Assembly (NCBI GenBank): GCA_027619595.1
Contig: JAQCHP010000030.1
Location: 1 to 41,674 of the forward strand
Direction: 5' to 3'
Length of the DNA stretch: 41,674 nucleotides
DNA from: Planctomycetota bacterium
GTDB taxonomy: Bacteria; Planctomycetota; Planctomycetia; Pirellulales; Pirellulaceae
Each line of letters begins with the position of its first letter. The stretch's first letter is position 1. The notes under the pieces are model-generated. The model was not told where the DNA came from. It ran no database searches and saw only the letters and a program-made list of their open reading frames with translations. A program made the position numbers and the translations under genes. Shown in pieces: positions 1-26,510 of this stretch.

Positions 1-213
1 CTTACCTACGTAGCACGAACGCAATCGATTTGACCCGTTTTACCCACGGATTCATCGGAAGAGCCTTTTATCCATGGAGATTTGGTCTCATGGGGATTGG
101 ACACGCGGTAACAATTACATCATTTATAACAAATACAAGTGCCGCCATGTGGCATCTCGGCAACCTACACTTGCATTACTTGCAAGTCTGTCATCTTATT
201 AGGTTACCACCGA

Positions 214-4154: not shown

Positions 4155-4155
4155 C

Positions 4156-9180: not shown

Positions 9181-11340
9181 CTACTTTCTACTCTCTCCAT
9201 TGATGCTGCGAGTTTCACCGCGGGCGAAACTCGCAGCATCAATGGCCGCTTGGCTGACGTGCCAAAGGTCGTTGACAGGAATCAGCGGTGGTCCGCCCTG
9301 CCCAATCCGTTCGACAAATGCCTCCACTTCGGCACGATGTCCCTTATCTTGGCGAAACAGCCGTTTTTTCCGGAAATTCGAACAGCCGTATCCCTGCAGG
9401 ACCCGAAAATTATCGAGTTCCAGCACTTTTCCTTGCGAATAAACGGTCAGCTTTTCCTTGGGATATGAGCGGTGTCCATTGGCAAAGTAATGGATGGTCC
9501 CGATCGATCCGTCGGCAAACTTGAGACTGATGGAGATGTGATCGTCGCACGTGGTTGCGCCACTCTGTACGCCGACTTGCTGTGATTGTACTGTCGCGAT
9601 CGTTGATCCCGTGAGGAACGTTAGCAGGTCCAGCCAATGGCAGCCCTCCCCGATAATTCTTCCCCCGCCCACCATCGGATCATGGGCCCAATGGTCACTC
9701 GGAATAGCACCCGCATTGACCTGCATGATCAGGCACAACGGCCCTTGGCGTCCCTGCAACAAGCTGGCCAATTGCCGCACAAGAGGCGCGAAACGCCGAT
9801 TAAAACCGACGGCAAGCTGTAGCTGGTTGGCCTGGGAGTAAGCCTCTCTTACCAACGAGATCCCCTCCGTATCGATGGCCAACGGCTTTTCCACGAAGAC
9901 ATGCTTGCCAGCCGCGAGAGCTTCGGCGACCATCGACGCATGTTGATTGTGCCGAGTCGTAATGACGACCGTATTGATGCGATCGTTGTCCAGAATATGG
10001 CGATAGTTGCTCGTACTGGCAGAAATTCCAAACTTGCGCGCCGCATGGGTAGCCGTCAGGCCACTAGCGCTGGCAATACACTCCAGTTTTGCGGGTGTAT
10101 GGCAAAACGCCGGTAGCAGAACTCCTTTGGTAAACGAACCAGCCCCCACGAATCCGATGGTAACACGCCCCACGCGCGACGAATGGACGTTGTTGGGAAT
10201 GTTAATGTATTCGGTCCGCTGCGTCGCTGCGGTTTGCCCGTACTGCAGCACGATTCCCAACTGATTACGATCGCGACTCACCAGATCGTAAGCCCGTTGG
10301 GCTTCTGCGTGCGGAATTCGGCTCGTGATAAGCGACCCCACGTCCAGTTTCTGTTGCTCCATCAGTTCCAACGTGGACATGATGTTCCGTTGTTCGGTCC
10401 ACCGCACGAACCCGTACGGATAGTCCTGCCCGTCCTGTTCGTATGCCGCATCGTACCGTCCTGGTCCGTAGGAACACGATACCTGAAACGTAATCTCCTT
10501 CTCATAGAACGCGGCCCGATTCAGGTGCAGCCGAGTTGCGCCAACCTGGACCACGCGACCACGTTGTCGAGTCATTTCGGCGGCTTGATTGACGATGTTG
10601 TCTTCTTTTGCACTGGCGGCGATAATGACACCGTCGACCCCCTGATGTTGGGTCATCTGCAGTGCCGCCGTCACTGGATCGCTCCCGGCGGCGAGATTCA
10701 CAGTTTGTGCGCCGTATTGTTCCGCTTGGCTCAGACGTTGCGGATGCATGTCGATCGCCAGCACGCGCACGCCGTTTGCACGGAGCAATTGCACCGTCAG
10801 CAGTCCGACCAAACCGAGCCCAAACACAGCGACCGTCTCGCCCAAGTTGGGTTCTAATAAGCGGACACCTTGCAATGCGATGGACGCCAACACGGCGAAG
10901 CAGGCATTCTCGTCTGGTACCGATTCGGGGACCTTGGCGCATAAATTGCGAGGCACCAAGACAATTTCCGCATGGCCTCCGTTGCTCGCGACACGATCGC
11001 CGGGCTTGAGGTCGGTGATCCCCGCACCGACTTCCAATACGACTCCGGCATTGCAATAGCCAAGGGGGAGTGGTTCGTCTAACTTCGAGAACACCGCCTC
11101 CAATGTGGGGAGCAGACCGTCAGTACGAATTTTGTCGAGCACCTGCTTCACTCGGTCGGGCTGTTGTCGAGCCTTCGCGATCAAATTTGCTTTGCCAAAT
11201 TCCACCAGCATCCGTTCGGTGCCGGCGGAGATCACCGAGCAGCGACTAGCAATCAATACCTTGCCGCGCGATACTTGCGGGCACGGAATATCCAATAGCT
11301 CCAGCACTCCACTTCTGAGATTCTGAATGACCTGTTTCAC
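9181..11340 (-). CDS. Two-domain oxidoreductase (zinc-type dehydrogenase plus Gfo/Idh/MocA)
   Basis: This is a 719-residue fusion. The N-terminal half is a medium-chain dehydrogenase with GYCNAGVV, DRVASNGGHAE and the NAD-binding VFGLGLVGLLTVQLL. The C-terminal half, from about residue 390, is a Gfo/Idh/MocA oxidoreductase (IGFVGAGSFTKGVLLPAF; HVFVEKPLAID, with the EKP motif). Fusions of this type are typical of surface-polysaccharide clusters and often sit near heparinase-like and WecBC genes, as here. They probably oxidise or reduce a nucleotide-sugar intermediate, but the exact reaction is unknown. The start is GTG at 11340, supported by GGGAGGAA six to eight bases upstream. The C-terminus lies inside the perfect inverted repeat at 9197-9245. 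It is the last gene of the minus-strand cluster, 90 bases after wecC. Confidence 0.9.
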   Translation of the reverse strand: MKQVIQNLRSGVLELLDIPCPQVSRGKVLIASRCSVISAGTERMLVEFGKANLIAKARQQPDRVKQVLDKIRTDGLLPTLEAVFSKLDEPLPLGYCNAGVVLEVGAGITDLKPGDRVASNGGHAEIVLVPRNLCAKVPESVPDENACFAVLASIALQGVRLLEPNLGETVAVFGLGLVGLLTVQLLRANGVRVLAIDMHPQRLSQAEQYGAQTVNLAAGSDPVTAALQMTQHQGVDGVIIAASAKEDNIVNQAAEMTRQRGRVVQVGATRLHLNRAAFYEKEITFQVSCSYGPGRYDAAYEQDGQDYPYGFVRWTEQRNIMSTLELMEQQKLDVGSLITSRIPHAEAQRAYDLVSRDRNQLGIVLQYGQTAATQRTEYINIPNNVHSSRVGRVTIGFVGAGSFTKGVLLPAFCHTPAKLECIASASGLTATHAARKFGISASTSNYRHILDNDRINTVVITTRHNQHASMVAEALAAGKHVFVEKPLAIDTEGISLVREAYSQANQLQLAVGFNRRFAPLVRQLASLLQGRQGPLCLIMQVNAGAIPSDHWAHDPMVGGGRIIGEGCHWLDLLTFLTGSTIATVQSQQVGVQSGATTCDDHISISLKFADGSIGTIHYFANGHRSYPKEKLTVYSQGKVLELDNFRVLQGYGCSNFRKKRLFRQDKGHRAEVEAFVERIGQGGPPLIPVNDLWHVSQAAIDAASFARGETRSINGESRK
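9197..9245. repeat. Perfect 20-bp inverted repeat with 9-base loop
   Basis: The arms 9197-9216 and 9226-9245 are exact reverse complements, separated by 9217-9225. The repeat covers the last conserved codons of the two-domain oxidoreductase (IDAASF...ETRSIN) on the minus strand. Its transcript would form a very stable hairpin in either direction. On the minus strand the bases that follow are purine-rich (GGAGAGAGTAGAAAG), not a T-run, so it does not fit a standard intrinsic terminator. It may stabilise the 3' end of the polysaccharide operon transcript. Confidence 0.9.
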
Positions 11341-11430: not shown

Positions 11431-12681
11431 CTATCGCCAAGCTCCGCGCGTATCGACGACCACTTTTTCTTGCAGGAATCGCCGAGGAATCTCTCGGAAT
11501 GGGCGGTGATCCGTTAACAAGACAAGTATCTGAGATCGCTCGAGGACTTCGCCTAAGGGGAGCAACGGTAACTCGGAAAACTTGCTATGAGGTACAAACG
11601 GGTCGCAAACAAGAATCTGCCCTACATTTCGCTCGGCGAGCATCTGTACGATTTCTAGGGATGGACTCTCACGAATGTCATCCACATCGGCTTTATAGGC
11701 AATTCCCAAGCACCCAATGACCGGAGAGGCAAATGGTCGTGCCAAGCGTTCGATGTGTTCTACCAAATAGTGTGGCTTTGAGTTATTGACTTCGCGGGCG
11801 GTACGCATGAGGGGGGTGATATCAGGTGCTGCGTGCACGAGGAACCACGGATCGACGCTAATGCAGTGCCCACCTACGCCTGGACCCGGTGTGAGTATAT
11901 TCACGCGCGGGTGTCGGTTCGCCAGTTCGATCACTTCCCAGGCGTCGATGCCGAGTCGATCGGCCAAGATCGATAGCTCATTTGCAAAGGCAATGTTGAC
12001 GTCACGGTAGGAATTCTCGACGAGTTTTGTGACTTCGGCGGCCAAGGCGTTCGTCGCCAATACTTCGCCCTTAACGAACGATTCGTAAAATTGCTTTGCT
12101 CGCGCTGTGCATTCTGGTGTAATCCCACCGACGACGCGGTCGTTTTGCACCACTTCGAACAGTATTCGTCCGGGTAGTACGCGTTCCGGACAATGTGCTA
12201 CGAACACGTCGCGTCCAACGGTCAAATTGGCCGGTATCGCTTCTTGGAGGACAATATCTTCCGTCGTACGCGGTGGACTCGTCGATTCCAGAATCACCAA
12301 GTTTCCTGGTTTGATGTACGGCTTGAGGGCCTGGCCCGCCTGTTTTACGTAGCTCAAATCGGGGGATCGGTCGGGACGGATCGGAGTGGGCACGCAGATC
12401 ATAAAAATATCGGCCGGCTGAGGTGTCTTACCCGCTTTGAGCTGACCACTGTTGACGGCTGACCGCACCAAAATATCAAGGTCCGGCTCTTCGATGTGAA
12501 TTTTGCCTTGGTTAATTGTGTCAACGACGTCGGGCCGAACATCGACTCCGTGTACTTGAAACCCCTTTGTCGCGAGAACACTCGCCGTAGGCAAGCCAAT
12601 ATATCCCAACCCCATGACGCAGACCGTTGTCTTGCCCGGAGCGTAACGTGGTTCGAATGGATTTGTGGAATTTTCCGTCAT
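11431..12681 (-). CDS. wecC: UDP-N-acetyl-D-mannosamine dehydrogenase
   Basis: This enzyme oxidises UDP-ManNAc to UDP-ManNAcA in two NAD-dependent steps in the cytoplasm. It has 416 residues. The Rossmann motif is GLGYIG at 24-29, followed by CVPTP, ESTSPPRTTED, and the catalytic-cysteine motif GPGVGGHC (Cys273). The C-terminal UDP-binding part carries GIAYKADVDDIRESPS. The ATG at 12681 overlaps the wecB stop as ATGA; the longer frame begins with TTG at 12690 and is less likely. Pairing with wecB immediately upstream supports the ManNAcA pathway. Other UDP-sugar 6-dehydrogenases share the fold, so the precise substrate rests partly on this context. Confidence 0.9.
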   Translation of the reverse strand: MTENSTNPFEPRYAPGKTTVCVMGLGYIGLPTASVLATKGFQVHGVDVRPDVVDTINQGKIHIEEPDLDILVRSAVNSGQLKAGKTPQPADIFMICVPTPIRPDRSPDLSYVKQAGQALKPYIKPGNLVILESTSPPRTTEDIVLQEAIPANLTVGRDVFVAHCPERVLPGRILFEVVQNDRVVGGITPECTARAKQFYESFVKGEVLATNALAAEVTKLVENSYRDVNIAFANELSILADRLGIDAWEVIELANRHPRVNILTPGPGVGGHCISVDPWFLVHAAPDITPLMRTAREVNNSKPHYLVEHIERLARPFASPVIGCLGIAYKADVDDIRESPSLEIVQMLAERNVGQILVCDPFVPHSKFSELPLLPLGEVLERSQILVLLTDHRPFREIPRRFLQEKVVVDTRGAWR

Positions 12682-13802
12682 TTCTGCCAACCTTGTTGAA
12701 GCATGAGTTCGACGATTCTGGGAGCGGCGGACCCGTCTCCATAGGGGTTTTTATCAACTTGATGTTTCTGATATTCTGCGGAATCGGTCATGATGGCCAT
12801 GGTCCGTTCTGTGATTTTTTCGACCGACGTGCCCACAAGTTCTACGGCGCCAGCTGCCACCGCTTCAGGGCGTTCTGTGGTGTCCCTCATGACCAGCAGT
12901 GGCTTTTTGAGCGACGGTGCTTCTTCCTGAACGCCTCCGGAGTCGCTTAGGATCATGGTACTGCGATCCATCAGCCAGACAAACTCGGGGTACGGCGCGG
13001 GATCGACCAGATAGACGTGCGGCAACGTTCCCAAGAGTTCATGGACAGGGCCCTGCACATTGGGGTTGAGGTGCACGGGGTAAAGGAATGCCACGTCGGG
13101 TAGTCGTTCCGCCAAGGTACGAATCGATTGACAGATATTGCGAAACCCGTCGCCAAAATTCTCTCGACGATGGCCGGTAATCAGGATCATGCGCTGATCA
13201 CCCAAGAAATCGTACTTCTTCCGCCATTCGCTGCCCCGTGCACGTTCTCGCTTGACGGTCCACAGCAGCGCGTCGATGACCGTATTTCCGGTAACGTGAA
13301 TCGTCGATTCAGCGTACCCTTCCTTGCGCAATTGATCCGCGGCCTGCGGTGTTGGGGCGCAATGGATGGCAGTGACTAGGCTTGTTATGCGCCGATTGAG
13401 TTCCTCGGGCCAGGGCGCCCAAATGTTTCCCGTCCGCAATCCAGCCTCGACATGTACCACAGGCAATCGACGATAGAACGCCGCAATCGACGTGGCAAAT
13501 ACAGTCGTCGTATCACCTTGCACAACCACACAGTCAGGTTGCTCCCGAACAAGGACTGTATCCATTCGTTCAATACAAGCCGCGGTCAGCTCGGCCAACG
13601 ATTGGTTGGGTTTCATTAGGTCCAAATTAATATCGGATTGGATGCCAAAATAGTCGGTTACTTGTTGCAGCATCTCACGATGTTGACCGGTGAGGCAAAT
13701 CTTGGCGGCGATATCTTGTGGACGATCCTTACAAGCGGCGACGATCGGCGCCATCTTGATGGCTTCGGGTCGCGTTCCGAACACGAGCAACGGTTTTAGC
13801 AT
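12678..13802 (-). CDS. wecB: UDP-N-acetylglucosamine 2-epimerase (non-hydrolysing)
   Basis: It interconverts UDP-GlcNAc and UDP-ManNAc, supplying the substrate for WecC. The protein is 374 residues, normal for the family. It opens with LLVFGTRPEAIKMAP and carries QGDTTT, VEAGLRTG, TGHRREN and SDSGGVQEEAP, all family signatures. The ATG at 13802 gives the canonical N-terminus; the TTG at 13820 in the same frame is less plausible. It overlaps wecC by four bases. The 158 bases upstream, before the NeuD-like gene, hold nothing recognisable. Confidence 0.95.
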   Translation of the reverse strand: MLKPLLVFGTRPEAIKMAPIVAACKDRPQDIAAKICLTGQHREMLQQVTDYFGIQSDINLDLMKPNQSLAELTAACIERMDTVLVREQPDCVVVQGDTTTVFATSIAAFYRRLPVVHVEAGLRTGNIWAPWPEELNRRITSLVTAIHCAPTPQAADQLRKEGYAESTIHVTGNTVIDALLWTVKRERARGSEWRKKYDFLGDQRMILITGHRRENFGDGFRNICQSIRTLAERLPDVAFLYPVHLNPNVQGPVHELLGTLPHVYLVDPAPYPEFVWLMDRSTMILSDSGGVQEEAPSLKKPLLVMRDTTERPEAVAAGAVELVGTSVEKITERTMAIMTDSAEYQKHQVDKNPYGDGSAAPRIVELMLQQGWQK

Positions 13803-13960
13803 GACGAGGACCCGATACAAATGAGGCTGGCGGATCCGATCCCACGCAGAACCCAGTTACCAACGTTGTATCCGATACCATTTCGCCGGGCTGAAATGCT
13901 GTTGACGGGCGTAGATTGTTTGATGTTTGGCATAGACTTCAGTTTAACCGGTGAGCAGGG

Positions 13961-14611
13961 CTAAACCACCTTGAATTTACGCGTTTGCTTGCACGTTACG
14001 CCAAACACAAAGCTATTTGCGGAAACATCTTGCAGCACTGCTGAATTCGCACTAATCGTTGAATTCCTTCCTACGTGTCGTTCCGGCACAACTGTTGAAT
14101 GCGTACTCATGTATACTTCGTCGTCGAGCGTCGAGAAACCATTCACCGTCGCATAGGGCGCCAACAGACAGTAACGCCCAATATGGACGTCATGTCCCAC
14201 CGACGCGAATAGGCTCAAGTGAGCATATTCCTGCAGAACCGCTTGGTTGGATACGACGGCAAACGGATAAATGACAGCGCCCTTGCCGATCGTTGCCGAC
14301 GGGGACACAAGGGCTGTCGGATGAATGACCGAGACGAATTCGGCTCCACGGCTCAATAGAGATTCCACCGTGCGGCGTCGTGATGCCATATCGCCAATCG
14401 CGAGTACGAATCGATCGTCTTGAGCGGGCTGGTAGTGGTCCGGGTGCCCGATGACTTGTCCAACTTGACCGTAATCCGCCAACGCGTCCGACTTTTGATC
14501 GACAAAACCTTTGAAAGCGAATTCGTCCGGATGGAGACAAGATGTCAACCAATTGCGGGCTTCACGCCCAAACCCGCCAGCGCCAACGACAACGACTTGG
14601 TATCTTGCCAT
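13961..14611 (-). CDS. NeuD/PglD-like sugar O/N-acyltransferase (first copy in map order)
   Basis: This 216-residue protein has an N-terminal Rossmann-like nucleotide-sugar-binding part (VVVVGAGGFGREARNWL) and a C-terminal left-handed beta-helix built of hexapeptide repeats (SPSATIGKGAVIYPFAVV; SVGHDVHIGRYCLLAPYA). The layout is that of NeuD/PglD enzymes, which transfer an acyl group, usually acetyl, to a sugar amine or hydroxyl. The expected catalytic His is in GHDVHIG. The ATG at 14611 has AAGG seven bases upstream. It follows the FabG-like gene in transcription order, so its donor may be acyl-ACP and not acetyl-CoA; that is inference. Confidence 0.86.
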   Translation of the reverse strand: MARYQVVVVGAGGFGREARNWLTSCLHPDEFAFKGFVDQKSDALADYGQVGQVIGHPDHYQPAQDDRFVLAIGDMASRRRTVESLLSRGAEFVSVIHPTALVSPSATIGKGAVIYPFAVVSNQAVLQEYAHLSLFASVGHDVHIGRYCLLAPYATVNGFSTLDDEVYMSTHSTVVPERHVGRNSTISANSAVLQDVSANSFVFGVTCKQTRKFKVV

Positions 14612-14638
14612 AGGATTGCCTTTGAGAAAGCGTCGCGG

Positions 14639-15415
14639 CTAGGCCGTCGCGCCTCCGTCTACCGTAATAATTTGACCTGTAATAAATCTACTGTCTTCGG
14701 ACATTAAGAAGCGGACGACGGGAACAACGTCTTCCGGTGTGCCCAGCCGACCCAAGGGCGTGCGCCGTTCGATTTGTTTCCGCTGCGATTCCGCCAGCCC
14801 TTCGCTCATTTCGGTTTCCAGAAAACCTGGTGCGATGGCATTAACGCGAATATTTCGCGAACCTAGTTCGCGCGCCAGGGAGTGTGTCAGGCCGAATAGG
14901 CCGGCTTTCGTGGCACTGTAGGCAGCCAAACCTGAGAATCCGCTCAGACCCACAATCGACGAAATGTTGACAATGCCGCCTTTACGTTGGACCAGCATCT
15001 GTCGCGCTACCTCTCGGGTCAAGAGAAAGCAGCCTCCCAAGTTGATCTGGAGGAGTTGTTGGAAATCGGAGTCGGTCATGAGCGCAAATACACCGTCCCG
15101 AGCGATGGCTGCGTTGTTGACCAGAAAGTCAATTCGCCCGAATTTGTCGCGCACCGTACGGACATATGAACGGACCGCTTCTGCATGACCGGCGTCGAGT
15201 GTCTCAAAATAGAACCGACCCTGTAGCGCTGGATCTGCTTGCCAAGTTTCAATCCTGGCACTACTGCTTCGACTGAAAGAGCAAACGAAATAGCCATGGT
15301 CGAGTAAATCTTGCACGATACAAGCGCCCAGGCCGCGACTGCCACCCGAGACGATGACGACGCCTGTTGTCTCTGGTAACGTTTGCAAGCCAGCATTCAT
15401 GACGAGTTCGTTCAT
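14639..15415 (-). CDS. FabG-like short-chain dehydrogenase (3-oxoacyl-ACP reductase type)
   Basis: This is a 258-residue classical SDR. The cofactor motif is GGSRGLG (24-30), NNAA lies at 100-103, and the catalytic residues are Ser153, Tyr166 and Lys170 (YSATK). It ends with the usual GQIITVDGGA. FabG enzymes reduce 3-oxoacyl-ACP to 3-hydroxyacyl-ACP with NADPH. The gene overlaps the acyl carrier protein gene by ATGA, which strongly suggests an ACP-bound substrate. Lying inside a polysaccharide cluster, it probably makes a 3-hydroxyacyl group for sugar decoration and is not the housekeeping FabG. No ketosynthase is encoded nearby. The SDR call is certain; the substrate is inferred. Confidence 0.88.
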   Translation of the reverse strand: MNELVMNAGLQTLPETTGVVIVSGGSRGLGACIVQDLLDHGYFVCSFSRSSSARIETWQADPALQGRFYFETLDAGHAEAVRSYVRTVRDKFGRIDFLVNNAAIARDGVFALMTDSDFQQLLQINLGGCFLLTREVARQMLVQRKGGIVNISSIVGLSGFSGLAAYSATKAGLFGLTHSLARELGSRNIRVNAIAPGFLETEMSEGLAESQRKQIERRTPLGRLGTPEDVVPVVRFLMSEDSRFITGQIITVDGGATA

Positions 15416-15669
15416 CCGCTTAGGGAATCCTCGTAGAGGCGAACCAATTCGCTAAACGTCTGCACGCCCGTTCTCCCTTCGCGGAAAGGATCAATGCCCA
15501 GTTCGTGCTCCAACTGAACGACCGTTGCCGCCAGGTCGAGTGAGTCGAGTCCAATGTCGCGGACCAGCGCCTGATCGTCCTGGAAGTCTTGTCGCGCGCG
15601 GCCCGATTCTTCCAAAATCTGATTAATCGTTAATTCGATCTTGCGGCGGACAAGAGTGGTGTGCGTCAT
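15412..15669 (-). CDS. Acyl carrier protein
   Basis: This is an 85-residue acyl carrier protein. The phosphopantetheine attachment motif is GLDSLDLA with Ser43, in the usual helix-II position, followed by the acidic helix VVQLEHELGI. It carries acyl chains as thioesters in the cytoplasm. It directly precedes and overlaps the FabG-like gene and follows a NeuD-like acyltransferase gene, so it is probably dedicated to acylating a sugar of the polysaccharide made by this cluster. The housekeeping fatty-acid ACP is usually found next to fabD, fabG or fabF, which are not seen here. No strong Shine-Dalgarno precedes the ATG. Confidence 0.93.
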   Translation of the reverse strand: MTHTTLVRRKIELTINQILEESGRARQDFQDDQALVRDIGLDSLDLAATVVQLEHELGIDPFREGRTGVQTFSELVRLYEDSLSG

Positions 15670-15708
15670 TGGTAATCGCTTTCGAATAGAGTTTCCAACA
15701 CGCGTGTA

Positions 15709-16368
15709 CTACAAGTTAATAGGTGTACGAATCTTAATCACCTGGGCGGGACATCCAACCGCCGTCACAAAACTCGGGAGGCTTCGAATTACGGTCGCAC
15801 CAGCGCCAATGATCGCCCACGGCCCGATACTCAGATTTTCTAGTACGACCGCACCTGCCCCGATAAACGCTCCAAGTTCGACAGATACGTTTCCGCACAA
15901 TGTAGCATTCGGAGCAATCTGCGAAAAATCTCCCACGATGCAATTATGATCTACGGTTGCCCCCGTGTTAATAATTACGTGATTTCCGATGTTTGCCTCA
16001 GGCTGTACAATCCCCCCAGCAAATATTACCGTGCCTTCGCCCAATGGGACCGCCGGGTCGACAAACGAATGGGGATGAATGATGGTGGCCCATCGCAATT
16101 GTAATCGATCGACCACCGACTTACGTAAGCAAGCATCTCCGATGCCAATAATGGCGCGTCCCGGATAGCCCGTTAGCCGGTCGACCGGGCCCTGGATGGT
16201 GATTCCCATCATCTGCTTTCCCCATAAGCGGGGGTCGTCATCGAATACGGCCGATACCTTGTCGCGACAAGCACGAATGGTGCTCACGATGACCCGCGCA
16301 TGACCGCCGGCCCCCACAACCACGATACCACCCGGCTTAATCGATAGTTCGTCTGCCACAATCCCCAC
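15709..16368 (-). CDS. NeuD/PglD-like sugar acyltransferase (second copy in map order)
   Basis: This 219-residue protein has the same architecture as the NeuD-like protein at 13961-14611: a Rossmann-like N-terminus (IVVVGAGGHARVI), then hexapeptide repeats (IGNHVIINTGATVDHNCIVGD), with the family's catalytic His in VDHNC. It ends with GCPAQVIKIR, close to the GxPAK end of PglD/NeuD. It probably acylates an amino sugar on a nucleotide carrier. The start is unsettled: GTG at 16368 or GTG at 16359, the latter with GGAG better placed. The two NeuD-like proteins are clearly diverged from each other, so they are likely to act at different positions or with different acyl donors. Confidence 0.86.
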   Translation of the reverse strand: MGIVADELSIKPGGIVVVGAGGHARVIVSTIRACRDKVSAVFDDDPRLWGKQMMGITIQGPVDRLTGYPGRAIIGIGDACLRKSVVDRLQLRWATIIHPHSFVDPAVPLGEGTVIFAGGIVQPEANIGNHVIINTGATVDHNCIVGDFSQIAPNATLCGNVSVELGAFIGAGAVVLENLSIGPWAIIGAGATVIRSLPSFVTAVGCPAQVIKIRTPINL

Positions 16369-16452: not shown

Positions 16453-17109
16453 CTATTGCTTCGAAGTCCCTGCGTCGGGGTCCCGATCCACGGTGCCCCA
16501 GAATTTGGGCATCGTCGAATGGCCCGAGGCGTTGATATCGGTAGGGCGAACGACGCGCCCGACGGTGCGGACCAGGATGATCGTATCCACCCACGCTGAA
16601 AGGTTGTCCACGTACCAAATATCGAACTCGAACTTTTCGTCCCAACTGATGGCGTTTCGGCCATTCACTTGGGCCCAACCCGTAATCCCGGGCCGAACCT
16701 CGTGCCGACGTGCTTGACGCTCGGTGTAACGATCCAAATATTCCACGAGCAGCGGTCGGGGCCCGACGAGACTCATGTCACCTCGAAACACATTCCATAG
16801 TTGTGGCAGCTCATCCAGGCTCAGACGCCGCATTGTATTGCCGAGCGGCGTGAGCCGTTTGTCATCCGGTAAGGGGTCCCCGTGTCTGTCGACCGCGTCA
16901 CGCATCGAACGAAATTTATTGAGTAAGAATACCTGGCCATCCCGGCCGCCGCGGGGCTGACGAAATAAAACAGGTGACCCCATATTTCGCCGAACCAGGA
17001 TGGCCAAAGCCACCATCACCGGACTTAATACAACCAGCAACAGTCCTGAGAATACGATATCAATCGCACGCTTCACCAAAGTTGGATAGATACCGTGTCG
17101 TTTGCTCAT
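16453..17109 (-). CDS. PglC-like phosphoglycosyl transferase (initiating sugar transferase)
   Basis: This 218-residue monotopic transferase moves a sugar phosphate from a UDP-sugar to undecaprenyl phosphate, the first membrane step of polymer assembly. Visible features are KRAIDIVFSGLLLVVLSPVM (the re-entrant membrane helix), KFRSM, the catalytic DELPQL (Asp99-Glu100), MSLVGPRPL, and PGITGWAQVNGRN, the last also seen in the small PglC subgroup. There is no N-terminal multi-span domain as in WbaP/WcaJ. The gene overlaps the upstream glycosyltransferase by ATGA. Its acceptor sugar cannot be told from sequence, but an acetylated diamino- or ManNAc-type sugar would fit the neighbours. Confidence 0.92.
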   Translation of the reverse strand: MSKRHGIYPTLVKRAIDIVFSGLLLVVLSPVMVALAILVRRNMGSPVLFRQPRGGRDGQVFLLNKFRSMRDAVDRHGDPLPDDKRLTPLGNTMRRLSLDELPQLWNVFRGDMSLVGPRPLLVEYLDRYTERQARRHEVRPGITGWAQVNGRNAISWDEKFEFDIWYVDNLSAWVDTIILVRTVGRVVRPTDINASGHSTMPKFWGTVDRDPDAGTSKQ

Positions 17110-18371
17110 GAGTTTCCACGGGTCAGCGGATCGGTCTTGGTGTGGGGGCTCATCGGTACGGCTAAGTCACAAAGCAATTGCTCCAAGATGGCGGCGTGCT
17201 GGGATCGTTGGAAGTGCTCTTGCACGTAATTCCGCGCGTTGGCTCCTAGACGCTTCGTCAAAGATGGATCGTCAAAAAGTCGCCGAATCGCATCGGCCAG
17301 GGCTCGCGCATCGCCTGGTGGAACACAAATGCCCCCTTCGGCTGACTCCATCACATCTCGAATGACACCGTCGATGGCGAGAATGGTGGGACGAGCGGCC
17401 GCCATATAGTCAAATACTTTATTGGGATACGTCGTGCGAAACATCGGAATGTCCTGCAACGTAGCCAAACAGACATCCGATCCGGCCAACACGTCCTTCA
17501 TCTGACTCTTGGGGAAACACCCCGCGAACGTCACGTTGGTAAGTCGTTTCGACTCAACTTCTGCCCGCAGCTTTTCCTCTTCTTTGCCACTCCCGACCAA
17601 CACAAACTGAATCGATGGAATGGACAGTAGTTGTTCGGCGGCACGCAGGATACAACCGATATCGTTGGCGAGGCCCAAGGCACCCGCATAAGTGGCCACA
17701 AATTTACCATCAAGTCCCAGGCCGGCGCGGAAAGTCTGTCCGGTACTCTCGTCCTGGAACATTTCAGGATCGACGCCGTTGGAAATGAAACTGATTTTAT
17801 TCCGCGGCACTCCTTTGCTCACCAGATAGTCTTCGTACGCCGGCGAATTAACAATAAAATGGGCGGCGCGGCGGTAGAGGAATAATTCCAGCTTTCTGGC
17901 AATCCAAATCAGGTAGGGATTGGTCAACACTTTCATGTCGATGGCAAATTCAGGCCAGAGATCTCGGATTTCAATCACGAGCGGTACTCGTTTGAGACGC
18001 GACACGACCCACGCGGAAATCAACTGAAATAACGGTGGCGACGTCCCCATCACAACGTCGGTCTTCCCCGACCGAAGGGCAGCCCAAGTGGACGTCATCA
18101 TGAAACTCACAAAAGCCACAATCCGCCAAACAAAACTTCGATGCAGAGACGGATAAACATAAGCACGAAGTATTCGGATCCCCGACTCACGGCTCTCATG
18201 GATCCAGTAAGGCGTTTTCACAACCGGTTTTCCCGTCAAATAGCCCATGTTGCCGGCGACAATCGTGCAGGCGTGTCCGCGTTGCGTTAGGTACGATAAC
18301 AATTCGAAGTGACGCGTACCTCCGGGGTGGTCGTGTGAGACAAAGCTTTGATGAATCAATAATACACGCAT
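17106..18371 (-). CDS. Glycosyltransferase family 4 (WcaI/WbuB-like)
   Basis: This 421-residue GT-B transferase starts with MRVLLIHQSFV and a glycine-rich acceptor loop (HPGGTRHFELL). EIRDLWPE is at about residue 140, SNGVD marks the domain junction, and VGSGKEEEKL and YPNKVFDYMAA form the nucleotide-sugar site. The common Glu in that last motif is Asp, as in many WbuB-like enzymes. Such proteins add an amino sugar, often FucNAc or a related residue, to a lipid-linked intermediate at the cytoplasmic face. The ATG at 18371 matches the family's N-terminus; the TTG at 18389 would add six residues. The gene is coupled to the PglC-like gene by a four-base overlap. Confidence 0.92.
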   Translation of the reverse strand: MRVLLIHQSFVSHDHPGGTRHFELLSYLTQRGHACTIVAGNMGYLTGKPVVKTPYWIHESRESGIRILRAYVYPSLHRSFVWRIVAFVSFMMTSTWAALRSGKTDVVMGTSPPLFQLISAWVVSRLKRVPLVIEIRDLWPEFAIDMKVLTNPYLIWIARKLELFLYRRAAHFIVNSPAYEDYLVSKGVPRNKISFISNGVDPEMFQDESTGQTFRAGLGLDGKFVATYAGALGLANDIGCILRAAEQLLSIPSIQFVLVGSGKEEEKLRAEVESKRLTNVTFAGCFPKSQMKDVLAGSDVCLATLQDIPMFRTTYPNKVFDYMAAARPTILAIDGVIRDVMESAEGGICVPPGDARALADAIRRLFDDPSLTKRLGANARNYVQEHFQRSQHAAILEQLLCDLAVPMSPHTKTDPLTRGNS

Positions 18372-18405
18372 GGTATCCGCAGCTCGCAACGTCGAAAATT
18401 ACAGT

Positions 18406-19686
18406 CTAAAGGGATGTCCCGTGGGGCTGTGGACTCCGGCACGCCAGAACGTCTTCAAAAACCCGCTCTAAACGCATTGCTAGTTTATGGCGAGCAAATT
18501 CAGATTCGGCAAGGCGTCTCGAATTGGCTCCCATCTGTTGACAACCATCAGGATCGTCGGCGAGCCGTTCCAATGCGTCGGCCAAATCGATGGGTCGTTC
18601 GGGGTCGACTCCATAGCCGCAGCCGTTTCCCTCGATCACTTCGCGTAGCCAACCGGGTACATTCACAATAACGGGCTTGCCAGCCGCCAAGCCATCAAAC
18701 ATCTTGTTGGGGGACCAAGTGTGTTCTTTGCTGGCCCGGTAAATTGTCATACATACGTTGCAAGCTGCGACAAGCTTGGCGACTGCGGACTTATCGGGAA
18801 TGGGGTCCGAGAAGACGAGGTTTTGCAGTCCATACTCCGCCGCCCGTTGTTCAAGCATACTCCTTTGGCCGCCACCACCGTGAAGAACGCACACGATATC
18901 TTTTCGTCCTCGATCCTGTAGGACACGGGCAGCTTCGACGACGTATTCCAACCCGTTGGCCATCCCCATGCCGCCGAAGTAAATCGCCGCGAATCGTTGC
19001 CCCAGCTGGAGCCGATCACGACCCCATTGTCGGTCCACTGCGGGTGAAAACAGGTCCAAATCGGCCGCATTGGGGATCACGGTAATCTTTTCGTCTGCGA
19101 TACCACTCCGCATGATGCCTGCCTTCATGCCCGGGGATAACGCGACAATATGCTGGGCCGCACGGTAGATTTTTCGCTCCATGCGTCGCATCCACCAGAT
19201 CGCCAGTGGATTCTTCAGGGCCCCCAAATTGATTAGCGCATCGGGCCAAAGGTCCCGGACTTCAAACACAAACGGTACCGAAAAGTAACGGCCTAGGCTA
19301 ATTCCCGCTAAGCCGATCGGCAGGGGCGTGTGGGAGGCAAATACGATGTCGGGTTTGGGCAATTTCTGGCCGACCTGGCCGGCCAAACGCGAAAAATGCA
19401 GGAAGGAAAGCATCCGACGGTAGCCGCCCTGGGCCGTAATCTTCAAGGGATTTGCGATGGCTGCCGCAATCGGTATGCAATGGATGCCATCGATTTCAAC
19501 TTCCGACCACAAGCGTCCCCGGGGGAGCGTTAGTCGCGGTTCATTGTCGATCCCCGAGCAGATCATATAGACTTCATGACCACGCGACGTGAGCACTTTC
19601 GCAAATTCATAGGACCGATTCCCGGTGAATCCGTGGTGCGTCGTAAAATGCTGGTGCATGTAAAGGATACGCAAGGGACTACCCAT
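18406..19686 (-). CDS. Glycosyltransferase family 4 (WbuB-like), second copy
   Basis: This 426-residue GT-B enzyme is similar in plan to the glycosyltransferase at 17106-18371: RILYMHQHFTTHHGFTGNRSYEF, EVRDLWPDALINLGAL, IPNAADLDLF, and the donor-site motif SPNKMFDGLAAGKPVI followed by REVIEGNGCG. It probably adds one residue of the repeat unit on the undecaprenyl carrier. The ATG at 19686 overlaps the end of the heparinase-like gene by eight bases. The two GT4 genes look like an old tandem duplication that has diverged. The exact donor and linkage are unknown. Confidence 0.92.
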   Translation of the reverse strand: MGSPLRILYMHQHFTTHHGFTGNRSYEFAKVLTSRGHEVYMICSGIDNEPRLTLPRGRLWSEVEIDGIHCIPIAAAIANPLKITAQGGYRRMLSFLHFSRLAGQVGQKLPKPDIVFASHTPLPIGLAGISLGRYFSVPFVFEVRDLWPDALINLGALKNPLAIWWMRRMERKIYRAAQHIVALSPGMKAGIMRSGIADEKITVIPNAADLDLFSPAVDRQWGRDRLQLGQRFAAIYFGGMGMANGLEYVVEAARVLQDRGRKDIVCVLHGGGGQRSMLEQRAAEYGLQNLVFSDPIPDKSAVAKLVAACNVCMTIYRASKEHTWSPNKMFDGLAAGKPVIVNVPGWLREVIEGNGCGYGVDPERPIDLADALERLADDPDGCQQMGANSRRLAESEFARHKLAMRLERVFEDVLACRSPQPHGTSL

Positions 19687-21952
19687 CCGTCGTGAGCTGC
19701 GGGGAGATGAACGGCGCCGTTGGCGAGCCCAAAACGACCGTATAGGTGGCCAGGGACGACTTTACCGACCACGTCTGCGAGTCCGTGTCATCGCCTTTGA
19801 CTTTCGCACGTGCAACACGCTGCAATTGGATACGGGAGCCGATCGCGATCGCCGTGACAACCCTACGGACTTTGCGCAGTCCGAACGTGCTTACATAAAC
19901 GGGAATCGCTTCCCTCTGGCCATAACTTCGGGAAGCGAATCCCTCGATGCTTCCCCTGAGGTCGCGCCCCTTGACAATTTCTTGCTGCTGGACATTCGCG
20001 TGTTCGGCTAGTCCGTCGTCGGTCCCGCAGTTGACGCACAGCCACGCGGGGCCAGACGACGTTTCAGCCCGCACGACTCCGGCCGATTCGACTTGCCAGT
20101 CCAAGTTCGCTAAATGCCACCGCTGAGTAACTCGGATCGGTACGTCGTTTCGTCGATCACGAGTTTGGGATCGGTGGCGTAGGTCGTCGACGATGAGCCA
20201 AATGTTTTCGGGCAGCGATGCCACCAAACGCCGATGTGTTGTTCGCCAGGGACGTTTTTCATAGTCAAAATGCGTTGCTTCCAGATGCGGTACATCCCCC
20301 GTCGCAACATAGCTGGTCAACTTTCCGCGAGGCCAAGGGAGCCACAAGAATCGGGATACGGATTGCAGCGGACCGTGTCCGTTGAGTTCAATTGTGTTGT
20401 GCGCACGAATTGATTTGAAATGAGTCTCTAGGTCCGGACGGTCCGGCATGTAATAGCGATGGGTACCGCAATCACGGATCAGATTCACTCCGTGGGACCA
20501 AAGATCGAGATGCAATTGATCGTAGTGAGCTGGGCGGTCGTTAAACGTATGGCAGCGCAACATGCACCACGATGCTTCAGCACGCAGCGTATAGTAGCCG
20601 CCAGACTTGAAGGTCGAGGACCGTTGTTGAGGCACGGTCACCGCCGAAGAACCCACCGATTCCGCTGGTGGACTCGCGGCCGGGCAGGGGTTTATAAATT
20701 CATTGCCGAAGAGCCACCGTGACTCCTCGTCCCACGGACCAGCGGTCAAGAGTCGACGACGATGTACCAGGAAGTATCCCGCTTGCACGACGGGCCGAAA
20801 GTCCCAAAACGGGCAATCGGTCAACGGAAGTACATAGGCGCCGTCATTATTGCCGTACTGCGGAACTTCACCCGACTTGTTGTCCAGCATCTGATAGAGG
20901 AACTCCACGCTCTTTCCCAGACGATGATAGACATCGGGAGGTAATGGATCGCCTTGAAGCTCAAGAATACGAGCCGACAAGATCGCCCCGTGGAGCATCA
21001 CTCGTTGGTAATTCAAGGAATGTTGAACGTAGCTGCCATCGTCGTAAACCTGCCGGCGCAGTTCTTGAATCAAGACTTTACGTCCCAGTAATCTCCAGCG
21101 GTCGGACTGTCGCAGTTCCGGAAACAGATGACTTATCACTAACAATCCGGCTGCTTCAGAAATGGCGTGATTATTTTTTTGCGATATGGCGTAGTCGATA
21201 TGGTGTTGGATGCGAAAACCGGTCGCCCAAGCCAGTCGAATGAAGTCACGCCAGTCTTGCGGTTCAGCACCTGTGGCGGAATTGGCCCAAAATCCGACTG
21301 CGAGCGCGATGAAACGGACGGCAGATTCCTGACCGCATTTCCAATGGAAACCTTCGAAGGGAGCACATTCGTCCATCCACGAACGGCACCATTGCCAAAA
21401 CACCGACCGCGCCAACGTACGCTCGTCGCGGGCCGCGGCGCGTGCGGTCTCAAACGCCCATCCAGCTCGAGCGGGCTCCCAGAGCCATCGTGGGTCGCCC
21501 TGTGACGGCAGGTAGTCCGGTATGTCGCACCAAATCGATCCCGGCTGGCTGCGGGTGCCATCAAATGGATTCTTATACCACGATATCTGCTCCGGGGACT
21601 CATAGTCGCAGAAGTAGTAGCACCGACCCCGCTCCAGAGTTTGAAGACGTGCTCGCAAGTCCGGAGTTCGTCGGGGTCCGGGCATCGTGTCGAGGTCCGC
21701 CACCGTTGGTGGCTGCCCTAGCGGAAACAGAAATTCCCGTAAATGCGACCGCTTCCACAAACAATATTCATCCCAGGAAGCGGCGATACCATCTCGCAAT
21801 ATCTCTGGCGGATTCAGCGAATCCCATGGTCGGGAAGCAAATGTCTTCCGTGATTTGCCTGACCAACGGTCAAAATAGACTCCGGCTCGCAAAACTGCGA
21901 TGCGTGGGCCGAAGTACCGTAGCAGATAGTATCCGATTTGGAGTCGATTCAA
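19679..21952 (-). CDS. Heparinase II/III family protein (polysaccharide lyase-like)
   Basis: This is a protein of about 757 residues with an alpha-toroid N-terminal half (NNHAISEAAGLLVISHLFPE; QVYDDGSYVQHSLNYQR) and a beta-sandwich C-terminal half containing DRPAHYDQLHLDLWSHG and the family's RDCGTHRY. These are the hallmarks of heparinase II/III-type uronan lyases, which eliminate at uronic-acid residues. In WecBC-containing clusters such a gene is a common companion, probably trimming or editing a ManNAcA-containing polymer. No signal peptide is evident at the N-terminus, so export is unclear. The frame's first start is TTG at 21952, with no ATG or GTG nearby, and I take it with reservation. 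It lies 29 bases after the epimerase stop. Confidence 0.88.
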   Translation of the reverse strand: MNRLQIGYYLLRYFGPRIAVLRAGVYFDRWSGKSRKTFASRPWDSLNPPEILRDGIAASWDEYCLWKRSHLREFLFPLGQPPTVADLDTMPGPRRTPDLRARLQTLERGRCYYFCDYESPEQISWYKNPFDGTRSQPGSIWCDIPDYLPSQGDPRWLWEPARAGWAFETARAAARDERTLARSVFWQWCRSWMDECAPFEGFHWKCGQESAVRFIALAVGFWANSATGAEPQDWRDFIRLAWATGFRIQHHIDYAISQKNNHAISEAAGLLVISHLFPELRQSDRWRLLGRKVLIQELRRQVYDDGSYVQHSLNYQRVMLHGAILSARILELQGDPLPPDVYHRLGKSVEFLYQMLDNKSGEVPQYGNNDGAYVLPLTDCPFWDFRPVVQAGYFLVHRRRLLTAGPWDEESRWLFGNEFINPCPAASPPAESVGSSAVTVPQQRSSTFKSGGYYTLRAEASWCMLRCHTFNDRPAHYDQLHLDLWSHGVNLIRDCGTHRYYMPDRPDLETHFKSIRAHNTIELNGHGPLQSVSRFLWLPWPRGKLTSYVATGDVPHLEATHFDYEKRPWRTTHRRLVASLPENIWLIVDDLRHRSQTRDRRNDVPIRVTQRWHLANLDWQVESAGVVRAETSSGPAWLCVNCGTDDGLAEHANVQQQEIVKGRDLRGSIEGFASRSYGQREAIPVYVSTFGLRKVRRVVTAIAIGSRIQLQRVARAKVKGDDTDSQTWSVKSSLATYTVVLGSPTAPFISPQLTTDG

Positions 21953-21981: not shown

Positions 21982-23547
21982 TTATTGCCCTGTGATGTCG
22001 TTGATGAGTTCACGTGCCCACGTGTCGCGGGCGAAACGCGACGAGCCCCCCGTGGTTAAGAACTTGACATTACTATATTGAGCTTCCCGGTAATCGGTCA
22101 CTTCGCCCGACGCGATGGCGTCCAAAACCTGTTGGATTCCCTGTTCCACCGTCCATTGTGGCGTGAAGTTCAATTCATTGCGGATCTTGCTGAAATCGAC
22201 GCGGTAGTTGCGTTTGTCCACGTCGTCGTCGTTAACGATCAACTCCGCATCCGGGACGCATTGGTGCACAATTTGGCCAATTTGTCGAATCGTGAAGTTT
22301 TGTTCGTTGGATCCGACATTGTAGATCTGGCCCCCTACCAGTTCGGTCGGAGCCGCCAGGATTCTGGCGACGGCCAGCGCCGCATCATCGACATGAATGA
22401 AGGGCCGCCATTGATCGCCGCCAAAGACCGTGATTTGTCCCTCTAACTTGGCCTTCGCGGCCAACACATTGACGACCAAGTCAAATCGGGTTCGTCCCGA
22501 CAGACCGTAGATCGTGGCGAATCGGACGATACTCGGGCGAAATTCATCGGTGACAAGGTTTTGCAACACCCTTTCCGAAGCCAGTTTCGTGTGACCGTAC
22601 AAGGAAATCGGTTTTACTTCAGATCGCTCATCCAATGTCTCGTCGCACGCACCATACACCGAACAGGTACTAGCGAAGATGAACCGTTCGATGCCTTGAT
22701 CGCGTGCGAGTTCAGCGATCATCCGCGTGGCGGAGAGGTTGACGTCGATGGTGAGGCTTTCATCTAGGCTACACGCAGGGTCACCCACAATCGCCCCCAA
22801 ATGAATCACACTCCCTACGCCTCGCATGCACTCAAGGACCTTCTGTACATCGCGGAAATCTTCTCGCACAATTTCGAGGTTCGGATGATTGGCAACCTTA
22901 GAAATTGCCGAGTCTCCGAAAAGTAGCATATCGAGCAGACGCACCTGATAACCGCTATCCAAAAGTTTGGGTAACAGTGCCGAGCCGATGTAGCCGCCAC
23001 CGCCAATCACCAAGACGCGACGTGACTCGAGATTACGTTCCCACGTTGCACGTTCGGGGGCCACTGTTTTTTGCCATAGTTCATTAAATATCCGGGCACC
23101 CACTGTCAAGACGATGGAATAGACCCAAGAAAGACCCAGTACCATACGCACTCCCGGCAAACTGACAATTTCGTTCACCAGAATGCCGTTGAACATGTAT
23201 GAAAAGAAGCCATACAGCAGATAACCAACACTGACTGCTTGAGTTACTACCAGTGCTTTGTATCGTCCCTGGTAAAAGCGACCGTAGGTGTAGAATCCAT
23301 TTAGCAAGAACAGCAAGATACATACGGTCGTCAGCGGCCAAACTGTATTGAAGAGGGCCATCAAGTAGTGCCCAAACAAGTTATCCAACGTTTGTTCGCT
23401 TGCCTCGTATTTGAGGATAATTAACCCAAACATCACGGTAGCGTAAGCCGCTACCTGTGCAGCAACGAGCAAACCGACGTCGGCCAGCACACGCAGCAGC
23501 ATGCCAGGCGTAAGCGACTTAAATGTGCGATGTGGAAGCGGTGCCAT
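21982..23547 (-). CDS. Membrane-anchored NAD-dependent sugar epimerase/dehydratase
   Basis: This 521-residue protein joins four predicted membrane helices (about 17-45, 67-87, 100-122 and 132-154) to an extended SDR domain from about residue 178. The dinucleotide motif is GGGGYIG, the catalytic Ser is in STCSVYG, and YGHTK supplies Tyr and Lys. The membrane part resembles the N-terminus of CapD/WbpM/PglF enzymes. The usual CoA-binding-like domain between the helices and the SDR is absent, and the SDR reads as GalE/WcaG-like. It probably modifies a nucleotide sugar at the membrane. ATG at 23547 is preferred over GTG at 23556 because GAGAAG sits eight bases before it. The specificity is unknown. 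Confidence 0.88.
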   Translation of the reverse strand: MAPLPHRTFKSLTPGMLLRVLADVGLLVAAQVAAYATVMFGLIILKYEASEQTLDNLFGHYLMALFNTVWPLTTVCILLFLLNGFYTYGRFYQGRYKALVVTQAVSVGYLLYGFFSYMFNGILVNEIVSLPGVRMVLGLSWVYSIVLTVGARIFNELWQKTVAPERATWERNLESRRVLVIGGGGYIGSALLPKLLDSGYQVRLLDMLLFGDSAISKVANHPNLEIVREDFRDVQKVLECMRGVGSVIHLGAIVGDPACSLDESLTIDVNLSATRMIAELARDQGIERFIFASTCSVYGACDETLDERSEVKPISLYGHTKLASERVLQNLVTDEFRPSIVRFATIYGLSGRTRFDLVVNVLAAKAKLEGQITVFGGDQWRPFIHVDDAALAVARILAAPTELVGGQIYNVGSNEQNFTIRQIGQIVHQCVPDAELIVNDDDVDKRNYRVDFSKIRNELNFTPQWTVEQGIQQVLDAIASGEVTDYREAQYSNVKFLTTGGSSRFARDTWARELINDITGQ

Positions 23548-23946
23548 ACGTATCACTTCTCTTTGTGGCTGAGAGACGGAAACGGGAGACCATAGTCATT
23601 ATGGCGAATTGACGATGAGACATGGGTCATCTGTGCCGGTGGCGGACAATGAACCGTAGCGTTTAGTTATAGCACGTCGGGGGCAAGTTGGGTGAGAGTG
23701 TCGGCGAGGCTTGAGTCGAGAATTCGCGTCCGGACGACGCGTCGTGGAATAGTTGCAACAATTGATTCAAGCGATGGAATTAGAGCAAATAACGCGATCG
23801 ATGGGGCCGAGACAGGTCGATCGGAATAGTCGGGCTCCCCAGGCCTGAGCGAAGTTGCGATTAAACACGTATTGGCTGGCTACTGTTTAAGTTGAATTCC
23901 GGTGGCCCTGCTGGCTTCACGCCGATCGCTCAATCTGACCAGTGGA
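23548..23946. other. Intergenic region upstream of the epimerase gene
   Basis: These 399 bases lie between the secreted-protein gene and the epimerase gene, both on the minus strand. No coding frame or RNA gene was recognised. It contains one candidate extended -10 element for the downstream operon. Its length suggests that the genes from the epimerase onward have their own promoter and are not simply co-transcribed with the two upstream genes. Confidence 0.5.
23666..23674 (-). promoter_or_regulatory. Candidate extended -10 promoter element
   Basis: On the minus strand this reads TGC-TATAAC, an extended -10 (TGn plus a near-consensus hexamer), about 120 bases upstream of the epimerase start. 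No convincing -35 is present at 17 bases. It would serve the polysaccharide genes downstream. The call is weak because such matches occur by chance. Confidence 0.3.
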
Positions 23947-25032: not shown

Positions 25033-26139
25033 CTAGAACCCCCCAAATCTTTGCAGATTCTGGACGGTCTGAGACCCGAGCAACGAGAAGCCGAGCACCC
25101 GTTCGAAAGGTTGTGTCAGTTTTCCGACAAATCCGTCCACCGCCAACCAACGGTCCTCGGCGATAAAGAGCCGATCCCCTGGCAATAGCTGGTAGTTCGT
25201 GGCCGCACTGCCACCCTGTACCATCGAGTCCCAATCAATGGGCAGAATTTGATCGCAGCCAGCACCGGGATGCGTGGGACGAGCTATCCACATACGCCGA
25301 CTCGCCACGCGATCCAAGCCACCCACCGAGGCAATTGCGTCGAGCACCGTGTCATTACCTGTGATCGGTTGCCTCGTGACGCTGTCGCCGAAACCGGCGC
25401 CTTCACGTACGACGTAAAACGCTTTGCTGTTGTAGGCAAAGACATCGAGCGAGACTTCGGGTCTATCGAGGAATTTCGCCAGATATTGCTCAATCGCAGC
25501 CTTGGCTTCGGCCTTGGTCATGCCAGCCACATAAACGCTACCATAACTTCCCAACGTCACGGTTCCATCGGGACCAACCAAATGCTCATTCGCAATTTGT
25601 TCCTGCCCCGATAACTGCAAAATGGAGACCGACACCTGCGCATTGGGGATCTGACGATCGAGTTGCTTGGCAATGGCCGCCTGGGCCTCTGCCGGTGTCA
25701 GATCGACGACCCTCACCGCCCCATACGTCGGACCAAGATTTACCATACCGGTGGGCTCGATTTGGAACGACCCAGCGATGGGAGCCTCAGCGGGCGTTGG
25801 TAGTGCTTGGATTTGCAGGATGTCCAAGGTTTGAAGGAAATAGGGGGACTTCGGGACAAGACGGGTTGCGTTGAGAATGAGGACGTCAGGTGGCTCCAGC
25901 CGGTACTCGGGCAACGAGACCTTTGCCAATTCCGCCGGGGGGCGTAGAGGAGCGACTAGATTGCCGTTTTCATCCGGCACTAAAGTCCCTTCGTGGGGCA
26001 CCATGGAAAGTTCTTCTTCCTGCCACGGAAGTACCTGTGTGGATAGGGTCGTACAGCCGCACAGGGCCGCCATCCCTCCGTAGGCGATCGCTCGCCAACA
26101 CCAAACACCCACTACGTCAGCCAACGTCCGAGACTTCAT
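25033..26139 (-). CDS. Polysaccharide export outer-membrane lipoprotein (Wza-like)
   Basis: This 368-residue protein has a probable lipoprotein signal ending in AALCGC, with Cys as the acylation site. It then has a poly-export domain (YRLEPPDVLILN) and two SLBB-type ligand-binding repeats (FQIEPTGMVNLGPTYG...; VGPDGTVTLGSYGSVYVAG...). It ends with LLPGDRLFIAED and a short C-terminal helix. Wza-type proteins form the outer-membrane pore through which capsule or EPS leaves the cell. ATG at 26139 is preceded by GAGGGGA, a good ribosome site, and is chosen over the longer frame. It is the first gene of the minus-strand cluster and is divergent from the large TPR gene. The matching inner-membrane kinase (Wzc) is not in the window. 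Confidence 0.93.
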   Translation of the reverse strand: MKSRTLADVVGVWCWRAIAYGGMAALCGCTTLSTQVLPWQEEELSMVPHEGTLVPDENGNLVAPLRPPAELAKVSLPEYRLEPPDVLILNATRLVPKSPYFLQTLDILQIQALPTPAEAPIAGSFQIEPTGMVNLGPTYGAVRVVDLTPAEAQAAIAKQLDRQIPNAQVSVSILQLSGQEQIANEHLVGPDGTVTLGSYGSVYVAGMTKAEAKAAIEQYLAKFLDRPEVSLDVFAYNSKAFYVVREGAGFGDSVTRQPITGNDTVLDAIASVGGLDRVASRRMWIARPTHPGAGCDQILPIDWDSMVQGGSAATNYQLLPGDRLFIAEDRWLAVDGFVGKLTQPFERVLGFSLLGSQTVQNLQRFGGF

Positions 26140-26510
26140 GACGGTCCCCTCAAACAGGTGCCAAGCCAACGATGACCAGCACGGTTTATCTAACCGATTC
26201 AGATAGGATAATCGGCAAGGTCTTCCAGCTTCTTTGGCCGAACTGCACAGATTTATTGAAGTTAGTCTCCTGTTTTTCCTAGATTGCCAAGTTTTCAGGG
26301 CTGCTTGGCCGTGGAAGCGACTATATTTGAGGGCCGTCGCAATTTGTAGAGTCCCCTGCAGCGCGTGCGGGTGCCGGCGAACCCTCGCTAGCGAGGGTTC
26401 GTAGTACTAAGTTGCTTTTCGTTGACAGGTATCGGAGAGTCGTTAGGATGGTGTGGTCGGTGCCCCGAGGCAGTCGACTGCGTTTCGGACCGGTGTCATT
26501 GGATCATGAA
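26140..26510. promoter_or_regulatory. Divergent intergenic region with promoters
   Basis: These 371 bases separate the Wza-like gene (minus) from the large TPR gene (plus). Promoters for both must lie here. I could not assign convincing -35/-10 pairs. The main visible structure is the 24-bp palindrome at 26378-26401. An alternative ATG for the TPR gene occurs at 26448. Confidence 0.5.
26378..26401. repeat. Perfect 24-bp palindrome
   Basis: The halves 26378-26389 and 26390-26401 are exact reverse complements with no spacer (centre GCTAGC). No gene ends here, so it is not an obvious terminator. Its place between divergent genes is compatible with an operator for a dimeric regulator, or with a dispersed intergenic palindrome of the kind seen in planctomycete genomes. 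It lies 110 bases upstream of the chosen TPR-protein start. Confidence 0.85.

Follow-up and report, generated by a model that had tools for sequence, protein, structure and literature searches.

A candidate acyl-delivery cassette of acyl carrier protein, FabG-like reductase and NeuD-family transferase in a planctomycete polysaccharide cluster

The viosamine island of Pseudomonas syringae is responsible for the D-Quip4N(3-hydroxy-1-oxobutyl)2Me on flagellin, and mutants in vioA, vioB, vioT or vioR, the last of which encodes a FabG-like protein, lose 3-hydroxybutyryl-viosamine from flagellin (PMC3927599). The island proteins VioR, VioB, VioS and VioT comprise 253, 213, 338 and 1173 residues, respectively (PMC3927599). 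In Pseudomonas viridiflava (locus L074) we found the gene order acp, KAS III, FabG-like reductase (254 aa), NeuD (approximately 214 aa) and a second KAS III (343 aa), with a 1172-aa glycosyltransferase on the opposite strand. Since gene order and sizes match those of the P. syringae island, we regard L074 as a viosamine island. For enterobacterial flagellin islands harboring ACP, FabG, CaiC and NeuD genes a lipo-sugar component was suggested, the acyl group being left undetermined (PMC4875605). In our literature search, carrier-dependent NeuD enzymes were not the subject of any study other than the cited precedents, and the standard family model, TIGR03570, names NeuD genes acetyltransferases.

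The window, as we call the whole stretch of 41,674 nt that was analysed, contains a polysaccharide cluster in which an acyl carrier protein (ACP) gene and a short-chain dehydrogenase/reductase (SDR) gene lie between two NeuD-like genes. The features of this cluster are as follows:

15709..16368, minus strand: NeuD1, PglD/PerB-like sugar N-acetyl/acyltransferase (PglD_N and hexapeptide; GGH motif; TIGR03570 206 bits, above the cut-off of 160.8)
15412..15669, minus strand: dedicated ACP, 85 aa (PF00550 26.6 bits, cut-off 20.8; phosphopantetheine Ser in GLDSLDLA)
14639..15415, minus strand: FabG-like 3-oxoacyl-ACP reductase (SDR), 258 aa (FabG model 252 bits, cut-off 297.75)
13961..14611, minus strand: NeuD2, NeuD/VioB-family sugar acyltransferase of a carrier-linked clade (TIGR03570 154 bits, just below the curated cut-off of 160.8; GGF motif; catalytic His kept)
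12678..13820, minus strand: WecB, UDP-GlcNAc 2-epimerase (TIGR00236 462 bits, cut-off 210)
11431..12690, minus strand: WecC, UDP-ManNAc dehydrogenase (NF008286 512 bits, cut-off 459)
9181..11340, minus strand: bi-domain oxidoreductase (Zn-ADH-like and Gfo/Idh/MocA), downstream of WecC
16453..17109, minus strand: initiating polyprenyl-phosphate sugar phosphotransferase (Bac_transf; PF02397 214 bits)
17106..18389, minus strand: GT4-type glycosyltransferase
18406..19686, minus strand: GT4-type glycosyltransferase
19679..21952, minus strand: heparinase II/III-like protein
21982..23556, minus strand: NAD-dependent epimerase (GalE-like) with a hydrophobic N-terminal region (PF01370 152 bits)
25033-26169: polysaccharide export gene

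In the direction of transcription the order is NeuD1, ACP, FabG-like SDR, NeuD2, WecB and WecC, and the stop of the ACP gene overlaps the start of the SDR gene by 4 nt (ATGA at 15415-15412). The genes are where the original prediction had placed them and lie on the minus strand. Upstream (5') of NeuD1 lie the genes for the epimerase, the heparinase-like protein, the two GT4 enzymes and the initiating sugar phosphotransferase, while WecC is followed by the bi-domain oxidoreductase. Scans for promoters and terminators gave no more matches than chance. The bi-domain oxidoreductase gene has at its 3' end (9197-9245) an inverted repeat of 23 nt, near-perfect and with a loop of 3 nt, which perhaps marks the end of an operon. 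The stretch 139-6333 of the window may encode a separate export system with a SecA paralogue of its own: a 669-aa SecA-like product comes first, then an HlyD-type protein and a membrane protein of the M50 peptidase/HlyD type.

Neither a sugar aminotransferase (VioA/DegT) nor a 4,6-dehydratase, and neither a KAS III, an acyl ligase nor an FkbH gene, was detected in the window cluster; four strong DegT genes are present elsewhere in the genome. The epimerase was considered as the missing 4,6-dehydratase and rejected, its best family matches being GalE-type and its active-site stretch reading TCSVYG. Dehydratases such as RmlB carry a TDE motif at this stretch.

We consider it fairly probable that ACP, SDR and NeuD2 work together as a small cassette for acyl delivery. 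Once phosphopantetheinylated, the private ACP would be charged with a short beta-ketoacyl unit. This would most likely be acetoacetyl, which a core VioS-like KAS III would form from acetyl-CoA and malonyl-ACP. The FabG-like SDR would convert acetoacetyl-ACP to 3-hydroxybutyryl-ACP, and NeuD2 would move the 3-hydroxybutyryl group to a sugar nucleotide destined for the surface polysaccharide. As for NeuD1, it would be a second, PglD/PerB-like transferase, probably an ordinary N-acetyltransferase and possibly ACP-fed too.

That no ketosynthase is encoded nearby, and that general fatty-acid synthesis may supply the chain, was part of the original prediction. Indeed, the window harbours no KAS III. 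The genome has three, and the one at G000:C272:39925-40971 (L171:8926-9972), which shares 45% identity with Pseudomonas VioS and 30% with E. coli FabH, is a plausible source. It stands alone, and most of the 117 relatives encode a homologue with 58-71% identity to it, so we regard it as a core gene and rejected it as a hidden dedicated member of the cassette. We infer that a general initiating synthase is likely to provide the beta-ketoacyl unit, which is close to the initial guess. A further KAS III homologue and an ACP are found approximately 5 kb apart at G000:C6:48656 and 53388 (L173).

The two transferases, which the original prediction treated as equivalent, turned out to be different. 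In a tree of 134 NeuD-family proteins, in which the VioB among the reference acetyltransferases is that of A. baumannii (7txp), NeuD2 falls into a carrier-linked clade of 97 sequences (SH-aLRT 94) that includes the VioB of P. viridiflava L074, to which it is 34% identical. NeuD1 lies outside this clade and groups with perosamine (PerB) and pilin-glycan (PglB) acetyltransferases, matching a perosamine N-acetyltransferase with 134 bits. The motif GGF is present in 96/97 members of the NeuD2 clade and GGH in 27/37 of the others, which are acetyltransferases, although the GGF figure is partly due to ascertainment, since the wider NeuD2 sample was fetched partly by GGF-containing patterns. Among the relatives retrieved by plain protein similarity (loci L035-L054, 20 in all), 19 carry GGF as well. 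In the column of NeuD2 Tyr153 the clade has mostly His or Tyr and the other proteins mostly Gly. The AF2 model of NeuD2 (pLDDT 92) matches PerB, PglB, VioB and PglD in a fold search. Kinship to the acyl-ACP enzymes LpxA/LpxD was rejected on this placement, and the modelled fold alone does not discriminate between a CoA and an ACP donor.

For 80/97 genes of the NeuD2 clade, but for only 4/22 other NeuDs, there is a gene for ACP, KAS III, ANL ligase or FkbH within 6 kb (Fisher 1.8e-8, which ignores relatedness; the controls are weak matches in relatives, and the contrast is not phylogenetically balanced). ACPs were detected in these neighbourhoods with an iterated profile, and 76 of its 81 matches show the DS-x motif. 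KAS III is located beside 41 of the 97 genes, a ligase without KAS III beside 22, FkbH alone beside two and ACP alone beside 15; the remaining 17 have no such gene, some of them lying at contig ends. An SDR is present in 35/41 of the cases with KAS III, in 21/22 of those with a ligase and in neither of the two with FkbH alone. Thus, the SDR tracks KAS III or ligase and not FkbH alone, as would be expected of an SDR whose substrate is the acyl chain. FkbH proteins are glyceryl loaders, and the FkbH-like homologues in the compared loci are weak Pfam matches.

The loaders of this family appear exchangeable. We put forward as a tentative but plausible proposal that the NeuD2 clade represents widespread carrier-dependent sugar acyltransferases, in which the loader swapped in beside the ACP-transferase pair would set the acyl group (3-hydroxybutyryl with KAS III and SDR, free acids with an ANL ligase, glyceryl with FkbH), PglD-ACP fusions would be the channelled form, and the window would show the system in its minimal state, with the chain coming from core fatty-acid synthesis. 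This clade-level pattern is more interesting than the window cluster itself. If the rule holds, a short motif and a neighbouring loader would predict 3-hydroxyacyl, glyceryl and other groups versus acetyl on surface glycans, planctomycetes included.

The same variety raises the question of whether the ACP in the window carries another acyl group (glyceryl, aminoacyl or a longer 3-hydroxyacyl) for transfer by NeuD2, the SDR reducing a different ACP-bound ketone. In relatives the ACP/NeuD2 pair adjoins FkbH-like genes (L044, L047) or ANL ligases (L043, L046, L049, L050) and not KAS III, and VexE of the Vi antigen transfers a long beta-hydroxyacyl group from ACP to UDP-GlcNAc (PMC9597891). However, neither FkbH nor ligase is found near the window cassette, VexE belongs to the unrelated LPLAT family, and the nearest characterised pathway, the viosamine island, adds 3-hydroxybutyryl. 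We therefore consider another acyl group unlikely and 3-hydroxybutyryl the better candidate.

The occurrence of the same cassette in relatives, proposed as a check in the original prediction, was confirmed: ACP-SDR-NeuD2-WecB-WecC is kept in five related genomes (L037, L038, L039, L040 and L042), in all of them without NeuD1. Further, among 117 related genomes the ACP subfamily is present in 16/22 with a strong NeuD2 match versus 2/95 without one (Fisher 5e-13, the related genomes not being independent). Because of the recurrence in five genomes and the co-occurrence of ACP and NeuD2, the gene arrangement is not due to chance. The bi-domain oxidoreductase adjoins WecC in L037, L045 and L052-L054, and the syntenic loci L045 and L052 contain a linked DegT aminotransferase. 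In genome G051 an ACP-SDR pair is located on another contig (L174), away from NeuD2. The loci L052, L053 and L054 share the downstream block NeuD2-WecB-WecC-bi-domain oxidoreductase, with the heparinase opposite, but differ from the window in having one or two SDRs along with two ACPs, a KAS III and an ANL ligase. At L044:5664-8450 (plus strand) and L047:5860-9249 (plus strand), ACP-NeuD2 is followed by an FkbH-like protein without an SDR, possibly for a glyceryl-type acyl group; L044 also contains a PylC-like ATP-grasp and a HAD gene.

NeuD1-like proteins with a fused C-terminal ACP are encoded at four loci:

L035:2312-3235, minus strand: PglD-like transferase with C-terminal ACP (genome G061; close homologue of NeuD1, 308 aa)
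L043:277-1188, plus strand: PglD-like transferase with C-terminal ACP
L046:12365-13276, minus strand: PglD-like transferase with C-terminal ACP
L152:7458-8408, plus strand: PglD-like transferase with C-terminal ACP

These fusions tie NeuD1 to ACP too and, together with the position of NeuD1 immediately upstream of the ACP gene, would suit a scenario in which NeuD1 is the ACP-dependent transferase and NeuD2 acts on another group, or in which both use the ACP. This is rather improbable, since ACP-SDR-NeuD2 is kept without NeuD1 in the five relatives, NeuD1 groups with PerB-type acetyltransferases, and L043 and L046 retain NeuD2 besides the fusion. The AF2 model of a NeuD1-ACP fusion was poor (pLDDT 58) and was left unused, and the column of what we take to be PglD His134 does not separate ACP-linked from other NeuD1s.

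The prediction of a dedicated ACP and ketoreductase was borne out, both being distinct from the housekeeping AcpP/FabG pair of the genome. The ACP domain scores above the PF00550 cut-off with the phosphopantetheine Ser in a DSL motif, and in an alignment with 13 relatives LDSLDLA and DPF are invariant, the subfamily signature being GxDPFR. Among further PP-binding genes in the genome there is an AcpP-like ACP beside a FabG-like gene at G000:C253. The AcpP stretch at C253 has 64% identity with E. coli AcpP and can be aligned with the window ACP over 27 residues only. The C253 FabG shows 48% identity to E. coli FabG and 43% to the window SDR; judged by sequence, it is likely the housekeeping FabG, and the window SDR is FabG-like. 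The latter scores below the cut-off of the FabG equivalog model TIGR01830 (252 versus 297.75 bits), and its best solved relatives are MupS (4yxf), followed by FabGs. It keeps the catalytic Ser-Tyr-Lys (S138/Y151/K155) as well as the counterparts of both R129 and R172 of E. coli FabG, arginines which are not general among the 57 SDRs of the compared loci. In E. coli FabG, both residues were reportedly named as ACP contacts. With 27% identity to Pseudomonas VioR, the window SDR is closer to housekeeping FabG and, by this comparison, is not a VioR orthologue. Similarly, the window ACP gave no BLAST match to the viosamine-island ACP and belongs to a different subfamily. SDRs are common in polysaccharide clusters and ACP-NeuD2 loci without SDR exist (L044, L045, L047), but a sugar-reducing SDR with an incidental ACP and two ordinary acetyl-CoA-dependent NeuDs is very improbable, given the similarity to MupS and FabG, the kept FabG catalytic residues, the overlap with the ACP gene and the tracking of acyl-loading genes by such SDRs.

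Several findings speak against the delivery of 3-hydroxybutyryl by ACP, SDR and NeuD2: there is no linked KAS III, ligase, FkbH, aminotransferase or 4,6-dehydratase, the NeuD2 fold is closest to acetyl-CoA enzymes, the SDR has only the low identity to VioR given above, and near NeuD2 homologues in L041 and L048 have no ACP nearby. Nevertheless, the polysaccharide probably carries a 3-hydroxyacyl group and not only acetyl, because a private ACP and reductase sit with a NeuD that is closer to the 3-hydroxybutyrate-adding enzyme of Pseudomonas than to ordinary acetyltransferases. The idea that a 3-hydroxyacyl group is made on the carrier and moved to an amino sugar gains partial support. What speaks for it is the observed gene content with its subfamilies and its linkage in the genomes (the dedicated ACP and reductase, the VioB-type NeuD2), the precedent of the published vioR and vioB mutants, and the core KAS III as a plausible source of the chain; the acyl group and its loading, the donor of NeuD2, the linkage (N- or O-) and the acceptor, for which an amino sugar was proposed, are predicted. 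An acyl-ACP donor for an enzyme of the PglD fold could be tested on NeuD2.

Among the known systems, the enterobacterial flagellin glycosylation islands resemble the window in gene content, with fatty-acid-type genes in a glycan cluster, and differ in being flagellin islands. VexE resembles the proposed cassette in acylating a UDP-sugar from a beta-hydroxyacyl-ACP (PMC9597891), but it has an unrelated LPLAT fold, prefers C12-C14 chains, acts on O-6 of GlcNAc and serves a lipid anchor. PglD, PerB, PglB-ATD and A. baumannii VioB have the fold and the catalytic His in common with NeuD2, and NeuD1 belongs in their group; their structures were solved with acetyl-CoA or CoA, and they show GGH where the NeuD2 clade has GGF. 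The P. syringae viosamine island (vioA, vioM, vioT, vioS, vioB, vioR, acp) also combines a NeuD of the same clade with an adjoining FabG-like reductase and ACP. Unlike this flagellin island, the window is a polysaccharide cluster with WecB/WecC and an extra PglD-like NeuD1, it lacks a linked KAS III (VioS), aminotransferase and methyltransferase, and its ACP and SDR are of different subfamilies. On these sequence comparisons, the window is best described as a planctomycete variant of the viosamine-island type of acyl-sugar pathway with a reduced set of linked genes.
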